Shown in pieces: positions 51,435 through 60,248 of a DNA stretch of 64,000 nt (position 1 is its first letter; every line of letters begins with the position of its first letter). The position numbers and the translations under genes were made by a program. The stretch comes from Methanospirillum lacunae. Its GTDB lineage: Archaea > Halobacteriota > Methanomicrobia > Methanomicrobiales > Methanospirillaceae. The stretch covers positions 62,001-126,000 of the forward strand of contig NZ_QGMY01000017.1 of assembly GCF_003173355.1 (NCBI RefSeq), in the 5' to 3' direction. Below the pieces are notes generated by a model. It had not been told where the DNA came from. It made no database searches and saw only the letters and a program-made list of their open reading frames with translations.

Positions 51435-52085
51435 TTATTGAGGGTCAGTTGCTAATCGTACACCCATTTCAAATGCCTTTTGACAATCAATTGGGAATAC
51501 TTCTGCTCTTCTCCGAATCTTCCCCTCAACATCATGGCTTGTTGCAACCACCTTTGAGTAATCTTCAAATTGAACCGTATCAAAGCTGAGGAGCGATTCA
51601 GAATCTCCGAATATCATTCGCGTGGAAAATTCATTAAACTCAACGTGTTTATCCAAACCTGCTTTCTTAAACCACTCTTCTGTCACGTTCATTGTATAAA
51701 TAAATCCCGATTTTACCTTTTTTTGAAACAGGGAATGACCTGAATTGCTATATTCAAGGTACTGAAAGAGTAACCGGTCAAGAAAAGCAGCCATCTCACC
51801 AGATACGCGTCCCCAGTAAATAGGAGATCCAAAGATAAGACCATCAGCCTCTTCTACTTTTTTGAAAACTTCAAGCAGGTCATCGGGTATCGGGCATTTA
51901 CCGTAACTTTTTCCTCCTTTGATTTTACAAGCAAAACAACTGGTGCATCCTTTATACTCCAAACCATACAGATGAATCAGTTCAGTCGTAGCTCCCTGTG
52001 ATGCTGCACCTTCAAGAGCCTTATTCAAAAGGGTGGCAGTGTTCCATTCTTTTCGTGGACTTCCATTAAATGCAAGAATTTTCAT
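51435..52085 (-). CDS. NADPH-dependent FMN reductase/iron-sulfur flavoprotein-like
   Basis: A 216-residue flavodoxin-like protein: ILAFNGSPRKEWNTATLLN (phosphate-binding loop), then GCTSCFACKIKGGKSYGKC, a compact cysteine cluster (CxxCxxC plus a distant Cys) as in Isf-type iron-sulfur flavoproteins, and DGLIFGSPIYWGRVSGEMAA. It probably transfers electrons from reduced ferredoxin or NAD(P)H. An HxlR regulator starts 38 bp away on the other strand. Confidence 0.87.
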   Translation of the reverse strand: MKILAFNGSPRKEWNTATLLNKALEGAASQGATTELIHLYGLEYKGCTSCFACKIKGGKSYGKCPIPDDLLEVFKKVEEADGLIFGSPIYWGRVSGEMAAFLDRLLFQYLEYSNSGHSLFQKKVKSGFIYTMNVTEEWFKKAGLDKHVEFNEFSTRMIFGDSESLLSFDTVQFEDYSKVVATSHDVEGKIRRRAEVFPIDCQKAFEMGVRLATDPQ

Positions 52086-52123
52086 TCTATTATCTCTCCA
52101 AATGTCTACTATTATTTATACGA

Positions 52124-52519
52124 GTGAGGTTCAAAAATATAGTAGTTACATTTATTGAAGCAACTATAGGACAGGGATCTAGTATTCGTAACCATACTGA
52201 ATCGAACAATAACGAGTGCATTACCAGGATAGAGAAGATTCTTTCAATTATAGGGAGCAAATGGACTATCCAGATTTTAAGGGAATTGTCGAGTGGAACT
52301 AAAAGATTTGCTCAGTTACAGAAGTCACTGAAAGGAATCAGCCCGAAAACTCTTTCGACTCGACTACAGGAGCTTGAGTCATATAATATAATTACTAAAA
52401 CCGTATATCCCGAGGTTCCACCACGAGTTGAATACTCATTCTCATCACAGGGTGAAGGATTAAAAAAAGTCCTCTTTGATCTCTATGAATGGGGTGAAGA
52501 ATTCCTTGGTGATGAATAA
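52124..52519 (+). CDS. HxlR-family winged-helix regulator
   Basis: Start uncertain. GTG 52124 is the best in-frame choice; the longer frame from 52070 would read into the flavoprotein gene. The HxlR domain spans the C-terminal ~95 residues: ILSIIGSKWTIQILRELSSG, FAQLQKSLKGISPKTLSTRL and VEYSFSSQGEGLKKVLFDLY. HxlR proteins often control adjacent redox-enzyme genes, and this one is divergent from the flavoprotein by 38 bp, so it probably represses that gene and itself. Confidence 0.83.
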   Translation: MRFKNIVVTFIEATIGQGSSIRNHTESNNNECITRIEKILSIIGSKWTIQILRELSSGTKRFAQLQKSLKGISPKTLSTRLQELESYNIITKTVYPEVPPRVEYSFSSQGEGLKKVLFDLYEWGEEFLGDE

Positions 52520-52647: not shown

Positions 52648-53853
52648 ATGAGAGTCGGGTTTATTCCTCTTCTTTGTGGACTCTTATGCATTTTATTATT
52701 CATTCTTTCCGGATTGCCTGTAGGGCATGAACTTGCCGGTACCGGAGCCAAACCAACTGTCAAGTTTGTGTATGCCTCCTCTGGTATCATGCCCCAGCTC
52801 CTGAACACTTCCCAGGTGGATGCATTCATTGTCTGGGAATCAGTTGTATCAACAGCAAAACTTGGGAAAATAGGCACAGTCATAGCCCGGGATGGTGATA
52901 TTCCCCCAGATCATAAATGGGAGAATGCGGCCTGCAATGTACTGGTCATGCGAAATAATTTCGTTGAACAGTACCCGGAAATTGCAGCACTTCTTTCAGC
53001 GGTTACTATTGCCGGCAACCACCAGATAGAAAAAGATCCTGATACTGCCCGGAATATTACAGCAAACTGGGTATACGGGTCAAAACCTATCCGTTCGGCA
53101 GGCCTTTATCTGAATCCAATAGATGTGGAAAATCAAGCATTTCAGTACATTACCTTTACCAGTTCAGCCCCGCTTCCTGATATTTCACGGCTGAAATCAT
53201 CAATGGATGAAGATTCTTCTCAAATGAAAGTTGATTATATCAATGGTTCTGTCATGCTCCGGGCACAGGAACTCATAAACGGATCATCACCGGTTCTCTC
53301 TAACGATCCTCCGGTTGTCCGCATTGGGTATCTTCCCTCATCAGATCTCTATGCCCCGCTATATGTCACAATTATGTCTCACAAGGAGATTTGTGATACA
53401 TATGGATTTTGTCTCGCCCCGGACTCAGGAACATCAGGACGGCCGACCGGTGCATCACTTCTTTATCATAATCAGACCGCTGCAAAGGTAGTGTTGCTTC
53501 CTGGATCTGTAGGAGGAGGAGTTATGACCGGTCTTGGACAGGAAGCAATGGAAGCAGCCTATATCGGGAGTGTTCCGTCAGAACTACAGATTTCAATGGG
53601 AAATGATGCATCAGTTATTCAATCGATCAATGCTGGGGGTTCAGGCCTCATCGTTGATAATTCTGCACCCTGTACTGACTGGAACTCGTTTATCTCATGG
53701 GTAAAAGACCGGTCAGCAAAAGGAAATCCGGTTATTGTAGCAGTTCCCCAAAGTTCAATTCAGGAAGAGATGATGAGAGAAGCGTTTGATTATGAAGGAA
53801 TAAACATCCTTTTGTATGGTATTCCCCCACGATGGAGTGTGAATGGCTCATAA
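52648..53853 (+). CDS. ABC substrate-binding protein with its two halves in reversed order
   Basis: A 401-residue secreted protein; signal segment 5-25. Residues ~36-165 look like the second lobe of an SsuA/TauA/NMT1-type binding protein (MPQLLNTSQVDAFIVWESVV; NNFVEQYPEIAALLSAVTIA). Residues ~222-395 look like the first lobe (VVRIGYLPSSDLYAPLYVTI, IVAVPQSSIQEEMMREAF, and an ending NILLYGIPPRW). Normally the first lobe precedes the second. The junctions match: the C-terminal strand stops where the N-terminal one begins. Either a circular permutation or a relic of two fused copies. Overlaps the permease gene by 11 nt. Confidence 0.75.
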   Translation: MRVGFIPLLCGLLCILLFILSGLPVGHELAGTGAKPTVKFVYASSGIMPQLLNTSQVDAFIVWESVVSTAKLGKIGTVIARDGDIPPDHKWENAACNVLVMRNNFVEQYPEIAALLSAVTIAGNHQIEKDPDTARNITANWVYGSKPIRSAGLYLNPIDVENQAFQYITFTSSAPLPDISRLKSSMDEDSSQMKVDYINGSVMLRAQELINGSSPVLSNDPPVVRIGYLPSSDLYAPLYVTIMSHKEICDTYGFCLAPDSGTSGRPTGASLLYHNQTAAKVVLLPGSVGGGVMTGLGQEAMEAAYIGSVPSELQISMGNDASVIQSINAGGSGLIVDNSAPCTDWNSFISWVKDRSAKGNPVIVAVPQSSIQEEMMREAFDYEGINILLYGIPPRWSVNGS

Positions 53854-54613
53854 ACATAAGATTTCAAGAGGACTTTTGCTGCCGGTGATGATCTTCATCA
53901 TCTGGGAAATTCTCTCTAAAAGTATTGGTAACAGTTTCATTCTCCCGGGATGGGAACTCATTATCCCGGTCCTTATTCATCCGATGGAGTCCCTGTTTGG
54001 GGGAGCCTCCCTTCTCGAAAATGCTATTGTGAGTCTTCAACGTGTCATCATCGGTTTTTTGCTTGCCGTTATGTGTGCAGTCCCTCTTGGTCTTCTGAGT
54101 GGCTGGTCTCAAAAAATAGATGATTATATAAATCCACTAATTCAGGTGCTCCGTCCGGTTCCTCCGATTGCATGGATGCCTCTCGCCATTGCCTGGTTTG
54201 AGATAGGGTTTGGATCACTCATCTTTATCATCTTTATCGGTTCTTTCTTTCCAGTGCTCATCAGCACGATTGAAGGAGTTCATACTATCAGGGGGAGGTG
54301 GCTTGAAGTGGCACAGACTCTTGGGGCCACCACCGGTGAAACGTTTCTGACAGTTGTAATCCCCGGGGCACTTCCCTTTATCTGGACCGGGCTTCGACTT
54401 GCATTTGGAGTCTCATGGATGTGTCTGGTTGCTGCAGAAATGCTTCCCGGAACAAGTGCCGGCCTTGGATATCTCATCATGTATGCATATAATCTCGGCC
54501 AGATACAGGTCATTGTAGCAGGTATGATCGTAATCGGCACTATCGGCATCATTTCGGATTATATTTTTAAACTTGGCCAATTACGCTTTTTTGGCTGGCA
54601 GGGGAAAGAATGA
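53843..54613 (+). CDS. ABC transporter permease (sulfonate/nitrate/taurine type)
   Basis: A 256-residue BPD_transp_1 permease with about six helices. The EAA loop is visible as EVAQTLGATTGETFLTVVIP followed by GALPFIWTGLRLAFGVSW. Closest in type to SsuC/TauC/NrtB permeases. It overlaps the binding protein by 11 nt and the ATPase by 4 nt. Substrate unknown: sulfonates, nitrate-like anions or a thiamine precursor are possible. Confidence 0.92.
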   Translation: MAHKHKISRGLLLPVMIFIIWEILSKSIGNSFILPGWELIIPVLIHPMESLFGGASLLENAIVSLQRVIIGFLLAVMCAVPLGLLSGWSQKIDDYINPLIQVLRPVPPIAWMPLAIAWFEIGFGSLIFIIFIGSFFPVLISTIEGVHTIRGRWLEVAQTLGATTGETFLTVVIPGALPFIWTGLRLAFGVSWMCLVAAEMLPGTSAGLGYLIMYAYNLGQIQVIVAGMIVIGTIGIISDYIFKLGQLRFFGWQGKE

Positions 54614-55365
54614 ATGAAGTCCTTGTTGTTGACAATATATCAAAACAATTTATCGATGATGATTCTGTTTGCCGGGCAATAGACTCACTTTCATTAACGA
54701 TTCGTAAAAAAGAGATTGTCTGTCTCATGGGGCCTTCCGGATGTGGGAAGTCTACAGTCCTGCGAATTATATCCAAACTTGAACATGCTGATTCAGGTCA
54801 AATTCATGGAGGTGACGGAGTTTTTTCAGAACAGTTGCGTTCTGCTATGGTTTTTCAGGAGCACGGGCTCTTTCCCTGGCTTTCAGTCAGGGAGAATATT
54901 GCATACGGGCTCAATATGAAAGTCAGGTTTTCCTCGAAAGAGCAGGTGAACCAAAAAGTTACAGAACTCCTTACCCTTGTCCGGATGGAGGAGTTTGCAA
55001 ATTCTCATCCTCACCAGCTCTCCGGAGGGATGAAACAACGGGTTGCGGTTGCTCGTGCCCTTGCGGTGGAACCAGAAATTCTCCTCATGGATGAACCATT
55101 TAGTGCTCTTGATCCCTTCACCCGTCGTGAACTTCAGGACGAAGTGCTCAGAATTCGCAATCAACTCAATACAACTTTTTTTATCGTGACTCATAATCCT
55201 GAAGAGGCAGTGTATCTGTCAGACCGGATTGTTATCCTTACACACAGACCGGCGGTGGTTCGAAAAGAGATTCCGGTTTCTCTTCCTTTTCCCAGGAATA
55301 TGGCAGATCCAAGTACTATCGCTCTAGTTCAGGATGTTACCCGGCTGGTTGCATCAGGTACATAA
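54610..55365 (+). CDS. ABC transporter ATP-binding protein (sulfonate/nitrate/taurine type)
   Basis: A 251-residue ATPase with Walker [15 protein letters not shown]-loop [14 protein letters not shown], signature [20 protein letters not shown], Walker [14 protein letters not shown] and H-loop [16 protein letters not shown]. The SsuB/TauB class is indicated by the Q-loop context. It overlaps the permease by 4 nt and completes the importer with the unusual binding protein. Confidence 0.94.
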
Positions 55366-55811: not shown

Positions 55812-56195
55812 TCAGTGATTAAAGGTTACCAGTTCACTCCACTCAATAACCTTTTTGGCAATTTCTATCGCTTCTTCCGGGGAGAGAGTATCAGTAATAG
55901 TATCATCATATCTTGCCTTGACTGCATAAAGATTGAGAAGTGCAACCATATCACCATCAACCGGTAATGTGAGTGAAAGATCCTGAATCAATTCAGTCAA
56001 TTCAACAAGATCATGAATCTTCCTGATAGGAGTACCTTTCCGTATCAATACTGCCTTTAACCCTTTTTCCACCGTCTGTTGAGCATGAAAGCAGATAATT
56101 GAGGATGGTCCATCCTTTTCAAAAAGGATTTTTGCAGCAATAAGATCATCATGACCGAGACGGATTAATGCTGCACTCTCCTCCTCAGCACTCAT
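55812..56195 (-). CDS. HEPN-domain toxin-like protein
   Basis: Start chosen at MSAEEESAALIRLGHDDL (56195), which overlaps the MNT gene by 11 nt; the longer frame only reads through that gene. The 127-residue HEPN protein shows IICFHAQQTVEKGLKAVL (HAQQxxEKxLKA hallmark) and AVKARYDDTITDTLSPEEAI (conserved RxxxH-like region replaced by RYDDT). HEPN proteins paired with MNT nucleotidyltransferases form type II-like toxin-antitoxin modules, the HEPN acting as an RNase. Confidence 0.85.
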   Translation of the reverse strand: MSAEEESAALIRLGHDDLIAAKILFEKDGPSSIICFHAQQTVEKGLKAVLIRKGTPIRKIHDLVELTELIQDLSLTLPVDGDMVALLNLYAVKARYDDTITDTLSPEEAIEIAKKVIEWSELVTFNH

Positions 56196-56511
56196 ACAGT
56201 ACCTTTCCTTCTGATAAAGCCCAGTATACAACAGTACCTGGAACCGGATCTCTGGTTTTCTCTGTCGGGTACACCAGAATATCGATACCAACACCGGGGG
56301 CTATCCTGCCGGCTGCTTTTCTCAGCCGTACCATCTCCATTCCCTGGTGCTTCACAGTATCCTCTATTACCATGAGATCAATATCTGAATCTGAAGTCTC
56401 TTCCCCGCGGGCATATGAACCAAACAGGATGATTTTTCGTGGATTCGCTGCTTCAACAAGGCGCCTCACCACATTTTGTATATCATCCATAGTTACCGGT
56501 ACCTGGTTCAT
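56185..56511 (-). CDS. MNT-type minimal nucleotidyltransferase (antitoxin-like)
   Basis: A 108-residue protein with the polymerase-beta fold motif KIILFGSYARGEETSDSDID: GSx10DxD intact, with a third acidic residue in VGIDILVYPTE. MNT antitoxins adenylylate a tyrosine of the partner HEPN toxin. It precedes and overlaps the HEPN gene by 11 nt, the standard gene order. Expected to be active. Confidence 0.9.
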   Translation of the reverse strand: MNQVPVTMDDIQNVVRRLVEAANPRKIILFGSYARGEETSDSDIDLMVIEDTVKHQGMEMVRLRKAAGRIAPGVGIDILVYPTEKTRDPVPGTVVYWALSEGKVLYEC

Positions 56512-57169: not shown

Positions 57170-58459
57170 TTAAAGCACGATTTCTTTTGGAGGATCATGA
57201 AATGGTTTATCAGAATCAGGGATAGAATCTAAATATTCAGCTACTTTCCCATTAAATGGGATAAAATCACCAAATACTTCCTCGTAGTTTTTTGTCACAT
57301 CGGGTATCCGGGTATGAACAACTACTACCTTATTCCATCGCTTTCCATGTCGGTGGATCTTAGCTTCATGAATAATATCTCTGATTTTCGTATCAGATGT
57401 GGCTAAAGAATATCCCAAAAAATACAGTTCATCTGCTTCTGCGATCTTTTCTATTGCAGCATTCGAGATCTCAATAAGATAAGGGGACCTCTCTACTTTT
57501 TTTCCAAATGGGGGAACAATTAATGACTTTGGATCAAATTTTTCACAGCAAAAATATCGTTCTTGCTCTTTCGGAGGGAGAGTTTTTATATATTCAATAT
57601 ATTTTTGAACTCCGCTCCATGGTGTAAGGTATGTTACAAATAATTCTCCACAATTTGTACATCTGCCCCAATTTATTGAACCGTGTAGCCGAAAAACGTG
57701 TAATTTATATTTAACCCAATCCGGGGGTCTAATGCGATAACAAATTGGACCATGACAAGCCAGATCAACGTCAGGGGATAACTCACAATAATTTACCCCA
57801 TAATCAATATCTGTTCTATCCAATACTCCAGATAATGCGAATTCAAGAAAATGGTCATAATTAAAGGTGAGTATAGTATCTCCCGGGTCGACGATTTTGG
57901 CGAACTTACAATAATTTCTCACGTAACCTTGGGCTTCGCTTGATAATGAACTGATATCTCCATCATCTTTACACGAACCATCTCGAAGAGAACGATAATA
58001 TTCCAATTCTCTTTCCATATTAAGAATATTTTTGGCTCGTATTACTCCCCCCATATCTTCCTCATCACAAAGATATGCGGCATATGGATTATCAATCGGA
58101 CCGATATCTAAATCTGTATTTATTTTGTCCCATGTTTTAGCAATTATTTCAATTATTGCATTAACAAATACCTGACGTAAAGAAAACAGCTCTTCTGGAG
58201 AATAATTTTTTAAAGGAGATCCCTCAATCAAACAATTGTCTATTTCTGATAATATTTCTTCAATATTTGGAGTATTATCTGGGAGATATACATCAGAGAG
58301 AAATTTGAGTATCTTTTTTTGATCTTCCTCATTCACGAGAGATAAAAACCGGTCTTCTAAAAAGTTTCTAATTATTGGAACTCCACAATCGGCTGACATT
58401 CCAGCACCGATAATAAAAACCCGTTTTGGAGAGAGATGGGATACTTCTGTTTCACTCAT
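57170..58459 (-). CDS. SIR2-domain protein, probable NAD-hydrolysing defence effector
   Basis: A 429-residue protein with a SIR2-like fold. NAD-binding loop VFIIGAGMSADCGVPI (residues 14-29), TILTFNYDHF (195-204), the catalytic-type histidine in VFRLHGSINW (255-264), a zinc site from CTNCGE (267-272) and CCEKF (304-308), and LYFLGYSLATSD (345-356). Non-deacetylase SIR2 proteins beside mobile genes usually deplete NAD upon infection. It overlaps a 31-codon gene by ATGA and follows an AlbA_2 protein gene on the same strand. Confidence 0.82.
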   Translation of the reverse strand: MSETEVSHLSPKRVFIIGAGMSADCGVPIIRNFLEDRFLSLVNEEDQKKILKFLSDVYLPDNTPNIEEILSEIDNCLIEGSPLKNYSPEELFSLRQVFVNAIIEIIAKTWDKINTDLDIGPIDNPYAAYLCDEEDMGGVIRAKNILNMERELEYYRSLRDGSCKDDGDISSLSSEAQGYVRNYCKFAKIVDPGDTILTFNYDHFLEFALSGVLDRTDIDYGVNYCELSPDVDLACHGPICYRIRPPDWVKYKLHVFRLHGSINWGRCTNCGELFVTYLTPWSGVQKYIEYIKTLPPKEQERYFCCEKFDPKSLIVPPFGKKVERSPYLIEISNAAIEKIAEADELYFLGYSLATSDTKIRDIIHEAKIHRHGKRWNKVVVVHTRIPDVTKNYEEVFGDFIPFNGKVAEYLDSIPDSDKPFHDPPKEIVL

Positions 58460-58551
58460 GAATATTCCTTTGATAACTCCTCATAGTAACAATATTTGTG
58501 CCAGATATGCTCCGGCTCATAAGTCCTCACCTCAATATAATCCTGGCTCAT
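58456..58551 (-). CDS. 31-codon micro-ORF coupled to the SIR2 gene
   Basis: ATG at 58549-58551 opens MSQDYIEVRTYEPEHIWHKY then CYYEELSKEYS, with TGA at 58456-58458 overlapping the SIR2 start codon (ATGA). It is only 14 nt after the AlbA_2 gene. Composition is protein-like (Tyr, Glu and His rich). It may be a tiny regulator of the SIR2 protein or the leftover start of a lost gene. No family recognised. Confidence 0.45.
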   Translation of the reverse strand: MSQDYIEVRTYEPEHIWHKYCYYEELSKEYS

Positions 58552-58565
58552 ATCCGCACATATTC

Positions 58566-60248
58566 TCACTCCTCCCAGACATAATATGTCCCCTTCCTGG
58601 TTCCTTTTTGCTGAATTGAAGGGTACTTCTCAACCATTTTATTGAGTAATTTCGAAGCCTGGGATCCGGTGAGGGTGCATAAATCCATCACCCCGGACCG
58701 GGTAATTTTTCCATGTTCTTTAAGCCAGGTTATAATCATCTGTTCCTGCTGGATTCTATCAAACCCTTTGGCTCTGACATAAGCTGAGGATTCATTCAGC
58801 CGCTTGTACACTCTTGGAGATAGGATGTAATGTCTGCCTCCTTTCTCTCCAACTCCTTGGACAAGCCCTCTTTCAATAAGTCGTTCAAGCGTAGCCTTCG
58901 CTGAATTCAATCCTTTCTGGGTCAGGTTGCCCGCTTCAGCGGTGGTAATCCTCCGCTCTGAATGGAGGGCATTTAAAATCAGCAATTCATCAAGTTTCAG
59001 AGATTTCCCGTTTCTATCCTGTTCAAAGACCAGGGCAGCGAATTCAAGCGAAGACTCTCCTCCCGGGAGAACAATCCGGACCGCATTTGAATCAGTTCGT
59101 GAGTAATCGGGAATCGGTCTGCCATAGGTGATCTGACCGATGTAGATCTTATCGACACCCCGCCCGGTCGTCTCCACAAGTCCGATTCTCCGGAAAACTT
59201 CAGCAAGTCGCGGGTTCCGGGGCTTCGGTTCATGTACGAGGATGTTGTCTAAGGTGACCCCTTCAGGAAACCCTCCGGGATTGGTAATGAGAATATGGTC
59301 TGTCTGCCACTGGATGAACACTGGCCCGGATTTTGCATAATCCCGGTGAAGAATGGCATTCATCATCGCTTCACGAAACCCTTCAGAAGAATAATCCGGA
59401 ATCGGAACACGGAATAACCCAACGATTACTTCGCGTTCTGCATTCCGGGCATTGAAACGATCCTCAATCTCCTGAAGAACGCGGGAGAGCGGGCCATGAA
59501 ACACATCATTAAGCCTGACATCTCCCCGTTCATCGAGAACCTGGAAGAATACCTCATGGGTAGGAAGATAGGTCGTGATGATTTCATCCTTTCCAAGGAG
59601 CAATAGACCGGCGTAATTGGGGATGAGCACTCCATCCTTGGTTTCCACAAGTTTTAGAGCTTTTACTAACTCCTCGTCTGTCAGTTCAAGGAGAGTATTC
59701 TCTCCTTTGCGGGCTTTGATGATCCTGCGAATCCACGCGAAAGCAACCGGGTCGAAAGCATCGAACCTAAGATTAGGAATCTGTTCAGCGGTCAGGTCTA
59801 TGGATTGAATCTGTATCCTCCGGGAGAGATGATCCCGAGGATAGAACGGAACAGATTGAGGCTTTCCCTGAGTCTCAATAATCCGATGGAGTGCTTTCCC
59901 TTGAGAGGTCGAGCAGATCTCAGGGTGTTGATCCACCTCAATCGAGATAACCTGAACGTCATCAACAGGCACAACCGATATACGTGTATTAATATTTGGC
60001 ACAGTCTTGGTGTAGATCATCGCTCTGATCTTAACCGGATCAATCCCCGTACCTGACCGATTGGGGATTCCGGTTACTGTCCCGTCATCCTCAACTCCAA
60101 GGAGAAGCACTCCTCCGTCGGTATTTGCCATTGCAACAATATCAGATACAATCTCATCATCGCTTTGGATCCGGTGGAGTTCAGATTTGAACTCCCTGCC
60201 CAGACCCTCACCCGCTGCGGCTAATCTCCGGATCTCCTCCTCATCCAT
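58566..60248 (-). CDS. AlbA_2 (Schlafen-like) DNA-binding domain plus HATPase_c_4 protein
   Basis: A 560-residue protein. The AlbA_2 domain at residues ~15-135 shows GREFKSELHR and VAMANTDGGVLLLGVEDDG. A RecG-like C-terminal HATPase_c_4 domain shows FREAMMNAILHRDYAKSGPV, ITNPGGFPEG and VFRRIGLVETTGRGVDKIY. Two winged-helix segments follow (LILNALHSERRITTAEAGNL; ITWLKEHGKITRSGVMDLCT). Often annotated as ATP-binding or putative transcriptional regulators and common in defence islands. It leads the micro-ORF/SIR2 gene set. Confidence 0.85.
   Translation of the reverse strand: MDEEEIRRLAAAGEGLGREFKSELHRIQSDDEIVSDIVAMANTDGGVLLLGVEDDGTVTGIPNRSGTGIDPVKIRAMIYTKTVPNINTRISVVPVDDVQVISIEVDQHPEICSTSQGKALHRIIETQGKPQSVPFYPRDHLSRRIQIQSIDLTAEQIPNLRFDAFDPVAFAWIRRIIKARKGENTLLELTDEELVKALKLVETKDGVLIPNYAGLLLLGKDEIITTYLPTHEVFFQVLDERGDVRLNDVFHGPLSRVLQEIEDRFNARNAEREVIVGLFRVPIPDYSSEGFREAMMNAILHRDYAKSGPVFIQWQTDHILITNPGGFPEGVTLDNILVHEPKPRNPRLAEVFRRIGLVETTGRGVDKIYIGQITYGRPIPDYSRTDSNAVRIVLPGGESSLEFAALVFEQDRNGKSLKLDELLILNALHSERRITTAEAGNLTQKGLNSAKATLERLIERGLVQGVGEKGGRHYILSPRVYKRLNESSAYVRAKGFDRIQQEQMIITWLKEHGKITRSGVMDLCTLTGSQASKLLNKMVEKYPSIQQKGTRKGTYYVWEE

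Follow-up and report, generated by a model that had tools for sequence, protein, structure and literature searches.

Natural circular permutants of binding proteins

Circular permutation has so far been described in nature for only a few binding proteins. TpMglB-2 is a bacterial protein with the type I / cluster B glucose-binding fold, the N lobe of which is affected by the permutation, and belongs to another family than the protein described here. Found in Treponema pallidum (Tp0684) and its relatives and designated 'type Ic / cluster Bc', it is a natural, functional permutant with an N-terminal membrane tether; the permutation was suggested to constitute a possible adaptation to anchoring (PMC4990184). 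Glycine-betaine-binding proteins, including OpuAC from Bacillus subtilis, are reported to be circular permutants among themselves as well as relative to molybdate-binding proteins and CysB (PMC2395249). In TauA, domain I comprises residues 23-104 and 202-319, and domain II residues 105-201 (PMC6906117).

The window analyzed here is a stretch of 64,000 nucleotides from Methanospirillum lacunae. The open reading frame at 52648..53853 (+) encodes a substrate-binding protein (SBP) of 401 residues, to which residue numbers refer unless stated otherwise. Across its entire mature length, the protein is homologous to TauA, SsuA, NrtA, and CmpA (PF13379; type II, cluster F); it retains their cleft motifs (GYxPSxD/H, D.AYVGxxP, GSxLVV, GSIQD/SSIQE, and QxDAFxxWE) and, like them, shares an operon with a permease and an ATPase. 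It differs from these proteins in its permuted order, with a cut within lobe II and a junction segment between the old termini, in an extra β strand in lobe I, and in a putative N-terminal tether on lobe II. Like TpMglB-2, it is a natural permutant of a binding protein with an N-terminal hydrophobic helix or tether, while with OpuAC it shares the type II fold and a natural permutation. In our view, the protein very probably represents a natural circular permutant of the NMT1/TauA/SsuA type (type II, cluster F, NMT1_2), serving as the SBP of an ABC importer. In the original prediction, a permuted periplasmic-binding fold encoded in a normal operon was noted as unfamiliar; given TpMglB-2 and the OpuAC-type proteins, natural permutation of binding proteins is not new. 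New here, as far as published reports could be found, are the NMT1/TauA/SsuA family, the cut point, and the archaeal distribution: a literature search, which had most subscription journals outside its reach and does not amount to proof, found no published permuted SBP of the NMT1/TauA/SsuA type or from archaea.

Gene and operon context

The gene is intact, with an ATG start. Its N-terminal hydrophobic helix (residues 5-22, 52660..52713, +), evident from the sequence and the AlphaFold2 model, is a signal peptide or an uncleaved membrane anchor, and may thus serve in anchoring. No lipobox is seen in the N-terminal sequence; lipoboxes are present in several B-type and Archaeoglobus-type relatives. 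The SBP gene is the first of an operon with the SBP-permease-ATPase order, the cognate arrangement of NMT1_2/TauA-SsuA-type SBPs. It overlaps by 11 bp the gene of an ABC permease of the TauC/SsuC/NrtB type (53843..54613, +; Pfam BPD_transp_1, E-value 5.7e-22), followed by that of an ABC ATPase (54610..55365, +; Pfam ABC_tran, E-value 3.9e-34). Against NCBIfam, the SBP scores far below the cut-offs of the SsuA, TauA, and SaoX models; the matches of the permease (SaoP, ntrB, TauC) and the best matches of the ATPase (PhnT2, SaoA, PotA) are all below cut-off as well. The neighboring genes offer no common hint at the ligand: an HTH regulator, a fumarase subunit, a HEAT-repeat protein, and a USP protein were found, none of them common to the neighborhoods.

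Several other genes of the window lie close to the operon. On its 5' side, positions 51435-52519 contain a divergent HxlR regulator and an NADPH-dependent FMN reductase, which were not seen beside the permuted SBP in the relatives examined. At 55812-56511 (-), an MNT-type nucleotidyltransferase gene adjoins a HEPN gene, the layout of an MNT/HEPN toxin-antitoxin pair. At 57170-60248 (-), a SIR2-like protein (a weak SIR2_2 match) is encoded beside a Schlafen/AlbA_2-RecG-C-type regulator, and this neighborhood is possibly defence-like.

A complete type II fold in permuted order

The Pfam profile NMT1_2 (PF13379) matches the SBP in two stretches (E-value 6.9e-12; 46.1 bits, above the gathering cut-off of 24.7). 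Residues 37-137 correspond to positions 153-247 of the 252 in the profile, i.e., its last ~95, which places the end of the profile at the start of the protein. An NMT1-like paralog from the same genome (L003, G000:C6) served as the conventional reference. According to hhalign, the N-terminal half (residues 36-207, 52753..53268, +) corresponds to residues 194-356 of L003 (probability 99.8, E-value 2e-27), which comprise most of lobe II together with the helices that complete lobe I at the C-terminal end, whereas the C-terminal half (residues 222-387, 53311..53808, +) corresponds to residues 60-192 (probability 99.5, E-value 2.6e-22), which comprise the N-terminal part of lobe I and the strand-helix unit that opens lobe II. 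The two matches cover mature L003 once, from residue 60 to residue 356 of 357, and leave out a single residue, at the cut (192|194). The identity of the halves to L003 is low (16% and 22%), and it is the hhalign scores, far above chance expectation, that are decisive. The segment left unaligned between the two matches (residues 208-221, 53269..53310, +) constitutes the junction of the former C- and N-termini, and the chain ends in a family-specific tail of low confidence (residues 388-401, 53809..53850, +; pLDDT <50 for residues 393-401).

The presence of second-lobe motifs before first-lobe motifs, on which the original prediction was based, is thus confirmed both by the order of the profile and by the hhalign halves. 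Of its description as 'reversed lobes', the permuted order stands, but the implied cut between the two lobes does not: the cut falls inside lobe II, behind the strand-helix unit with which this lobe begins, and in terms of TauA inside domain II. Consequently, lobe II is made from both ends of the chain, and lobe I, split in ordinary SBPs, would form one unbroken stretch, to judge from the aligned sequences. Nor does the C-terminus coincide with the opening strand of the N-terminal lobe, as had been proposed; it falls just past the IAVPQSSIQEE helix. Duplication of the same β strand at both ends was considered and rejected, as the C-terminal strand (residues 386-389) corresponds to a loop in the conventional protein. 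The chain does not run from lobe I to lobe II and back to lobe I; because its order is permuted, the protein is classed as a permuted relative of NMT1_2 SBPs rather than as an ordinary member, and it displays the complete fold with relocated termini that characterizes circularly permuted binding proteins.

Structure prediction agrees with this assignment. The AlphaFold2 model of the SBP, built on 37 homologs (pLDDT 88, pTM 0.83), displays a type II fold with two lobes, in which no secondary structure element is lacking; the model of L003, built on 16 homologs, is of similar quality (pLDDT 88.9, pTM 0.82). Strands and helices of the two models pair one to one in permuted order, and in the permuted register of hhalign the secondary structure agrees at 257 of 285 residues (0.90), whereas shifted-register controls average 0.36 and do not exceed 0.52. 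An additional β strand (residues 268-273) in the C-terminal half has no equivalent in the conventional model. The prediction thus points to a single two-lobed SBP fold and not to two unrelated domains. With profile, structure, and synteny in agreement, the proposed permutation of a periplasmic-binding fold, encoded in an ordinary permease/ATPase operon, is borne out.

With a sequential structural aligner, the L003 model matches NrtA (Z 34.3, 294 residues), TauA (Z 31.9), and SsuA (Z 30-33) over 279-294 residues, while the model of the permuted SBP reaches only Z 7.8 over 184 residues with SsuA; its top match is OpuAC (Z 9.6, 207 residues). Foldseek returned poor global matches only (NMDA receptors, TM 0.27), which is what a sequential aligner should give for a permuted chain. 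That OpuAC is the top sequential match points to a similar lobe-II-first order, although the aligned ranges suggest that its cut precedes the present one by one strand-helix unit, like that of the archaeal protein L071 (see below). A sequence profile search of the PDB matches the SBP to TauA, Nrt, Cmp, and SsuA chains and not to OpuAC, and PF04069 gives a weak match to lobe II (E-value 0.098).

Proposed rearrangement and function

The protein is probably derived from an ancestral chain with the order lobe I - lobe II - lobe I, the old N- and C-termini of which, both located in lobe I, would have been joined. The joined chain would then have acquired a new opening in lobe II, at a surface loop that follows the lobe's first strand-helix unit, with the export signal kept at the new front. 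Once folded, the permuted SBP would have its two lobes, hinge, and cleft motifs intact. Its lobes presumably close around a small solute, probably an anion, which might then be passed, as in TauA and SsuA, to the ATPase and the one-gene (homodimeric) permease encoded just 3'. Its tether would be attached through lobe II, in contrast to lobe I in TauA and SsuA. Most likely, the protein works like TauA and SsuA, by capture between the lobes, closure, and delivery; from a complete SBP fold encoded in an importer operon, we infer these further steps.

Conservation and distribution

The two best named matches of the SBP come from Methanospirillum contigs (67% and 64% identity, nearly full length), and the permuted order is conserved over the full length in relatives of 25-67% identity. 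A family-level search yielded a match in 65 of 108 genomes, and an order-level profile search in 120 of 232 Methanomicrobiales genomes, representing 25 of 40 genera, some of these matches being fragments at contig ends. Among Archaeoglobales-like genomes (the order of G322), 20 of 57 encode a permuted SBP. Within the closer permuted family, full-length proteins match the family profile with E-values < 1e-90; conventional SBPs of the phylum match it only as swapped halves, mostly with E-values of 1e-8 to 1e-13. A profile of conventional SBPs reveals a shared cut, at model position ~176, in Archaeoglobus-type proteins (L061-L063, L070, and L086) as well as in members of families f10 (L066), f21 (L067, L068), f25 (L087), f29 (L092), f30 (L088), and f33 (L089-L091, L093). 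In several families, the genes of permuted SBPs, like those of conventional ones, lie directly 5' of the permease and ATPase genes and so retain the SBP-permease-ATPase order. Among congeners, dN/dS amounts to ~0.13-0.16, with dS near saturation, and sequence comparison indicates that the gene is under purifying selection. On bacterial plasmids, only matches from lobe II to other SBPs were found, and no full-length permuted relative. Three proteins with partial Pfam matches (G490 C116, C1, and C41), considered as further permutants, all turned out to be conventional.

Some loci show unusual gene arrangements. At L087:1420-3437, a conventional NMT1_2 protein (~300 residues, no obvious signal peptide) is encoded directly 5' of the permuted SBP and in the same direction; the genes of the permease and the ATPase follow. 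Two genomes of one genus (f3 g25; L080 and L097) each contain two adjoining permuted SBP genes in tandem, located in L080 5' of the permease gene. In L030 (G068), the permuted SBP is split into two overlapping frames at the junction between the halves, which could reflect a frameshift, a pseudogene, or a sequence error.

Alternative explanations

One textbook origin of circular permutations is the duplication of a sequence with subsequent loss of its outer halves. The original prediction offered as an alternative a tandem SBP-SBP fusion devoid of its outer halves, which would make the protein the joined half-proteins of two copies. The adjoining permuted gene copies in L080 and L097 lend this reading some support, yet we regard it as improbable: a search for tandem homologs revealed no N-C-N-C order, as the long frames checked (L081-L085 and L139-L144) hold one SBP each; nothing is missing or duplicated except one residue at the cut; and the trees of the two halves agree. 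As no part of the SBP is missing, a tandem loss is not needed to account for missing parts. Duplication with loss of the outer halves is possible as the historical route, but it adds nothing on the present-day protein. It is far less probable that the halves were shuffled from different SBP families, with no single permuted ancestor. The low identity of the halves to conventional proteins would fit such a chimera, but both match the same conventional family, end to end, with the single missing residue at the cut; moreover, the half-trees yield the same groups, and neither rejects one permuted clade (p-AU 0.76 and 0.43), so that their compatibility gives no sign of a chimera.

The location of both chain ends in the same lobe would allow their exchange between two copies (3D domain swapping), with an intertwined dimer as the working unit. 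This is very unlikely, though slightly less so than lobe shuffling, given that a monomer is predicted with high confidence across both halves, and that TpMglB-2, the closest studied analog, is monomeric (PMC4990184). One might suspect from the split frames of L030 that the assembly or the annotation is at fault or that the gene is decaying, but the same order recurs in dozens of independent genomes, including single-contig ones and the named Methanospirillum contigs; this conservation refutes the explanation, and purifying selection also speaks against it, which leaves it practically no probability. A naturally permuted, complete SBP is therefore the preferred reading.

A second permutation with another cut point

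When the sequences are re-ordered and placed in a tree, the permutants with the cut of the M. lacunae protein (P1) fall into two strong clades, a methanogen-type and an Archaeoglobus-type one. A constraint uniting them in one clade is not rejected (p-AU 0.61), which makes a single origin of P1 possible rather than demonstrated. L071 (P2), the protein with the second cut, is placed among conventional proteins from the family to which it belongs, and one origin for both cut points can be dismissed, as P1 and P2 are rejected as a single clade (p-AU 0.001). In swapped halves, L071 is 50% identical to L064, with near-exact joints; in a congener (G239), a protein with the conventional order is 84% and 70% identical to it in the two halves. 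At the DNA level, L100:3365-4454 (G265) and the corresponding L146/L149 (G239) have collinear flanks and operons with two lobe-coding blocks exchanged between the signal peptide and the stop codon, i.e., an in-place swap. P2 thus constitutes an independent and possibly very recent permutation with another cut point, in a Methanocella-like genome represented by one draft assembly.

On balance, we favor the existence of an ancient, widely kept permuted NMT1/TauA-type class in archaea ('type IIc') and of two or more permutations, independent of each other, in a single SBP family: one deep and common to Methanomicrobiales, Archaeoglobales, and others, and one between two congeneric Methanocella-like genomes, where it can be seen as an exchange of DNA blocks in place. 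The move of the tether to lobe II could be the property under selection.

Implications

A rearranged SBP conserved across many methane-making and sulfate-reducing archaea provides a clean natural example of a re-ordering that has been kept. The permuted family offers many sequences along with conventional paralogs within the same genomes, while for the second, recent permutation a single genus has the two orders at syntenic loci. As profile annotation matches permuted SBPs with only a part of the family profile, such proteins may be mislabelled as partial. Both the DNA-level origin of the permutation and the effect of anchoring by the other lobe on docking and transport become testable; so does the anchoring-adaptation idea proposed for TpMglB-2, for which the M. 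lacunae SBP, probably tethered through lobe II, may serve as a test case.
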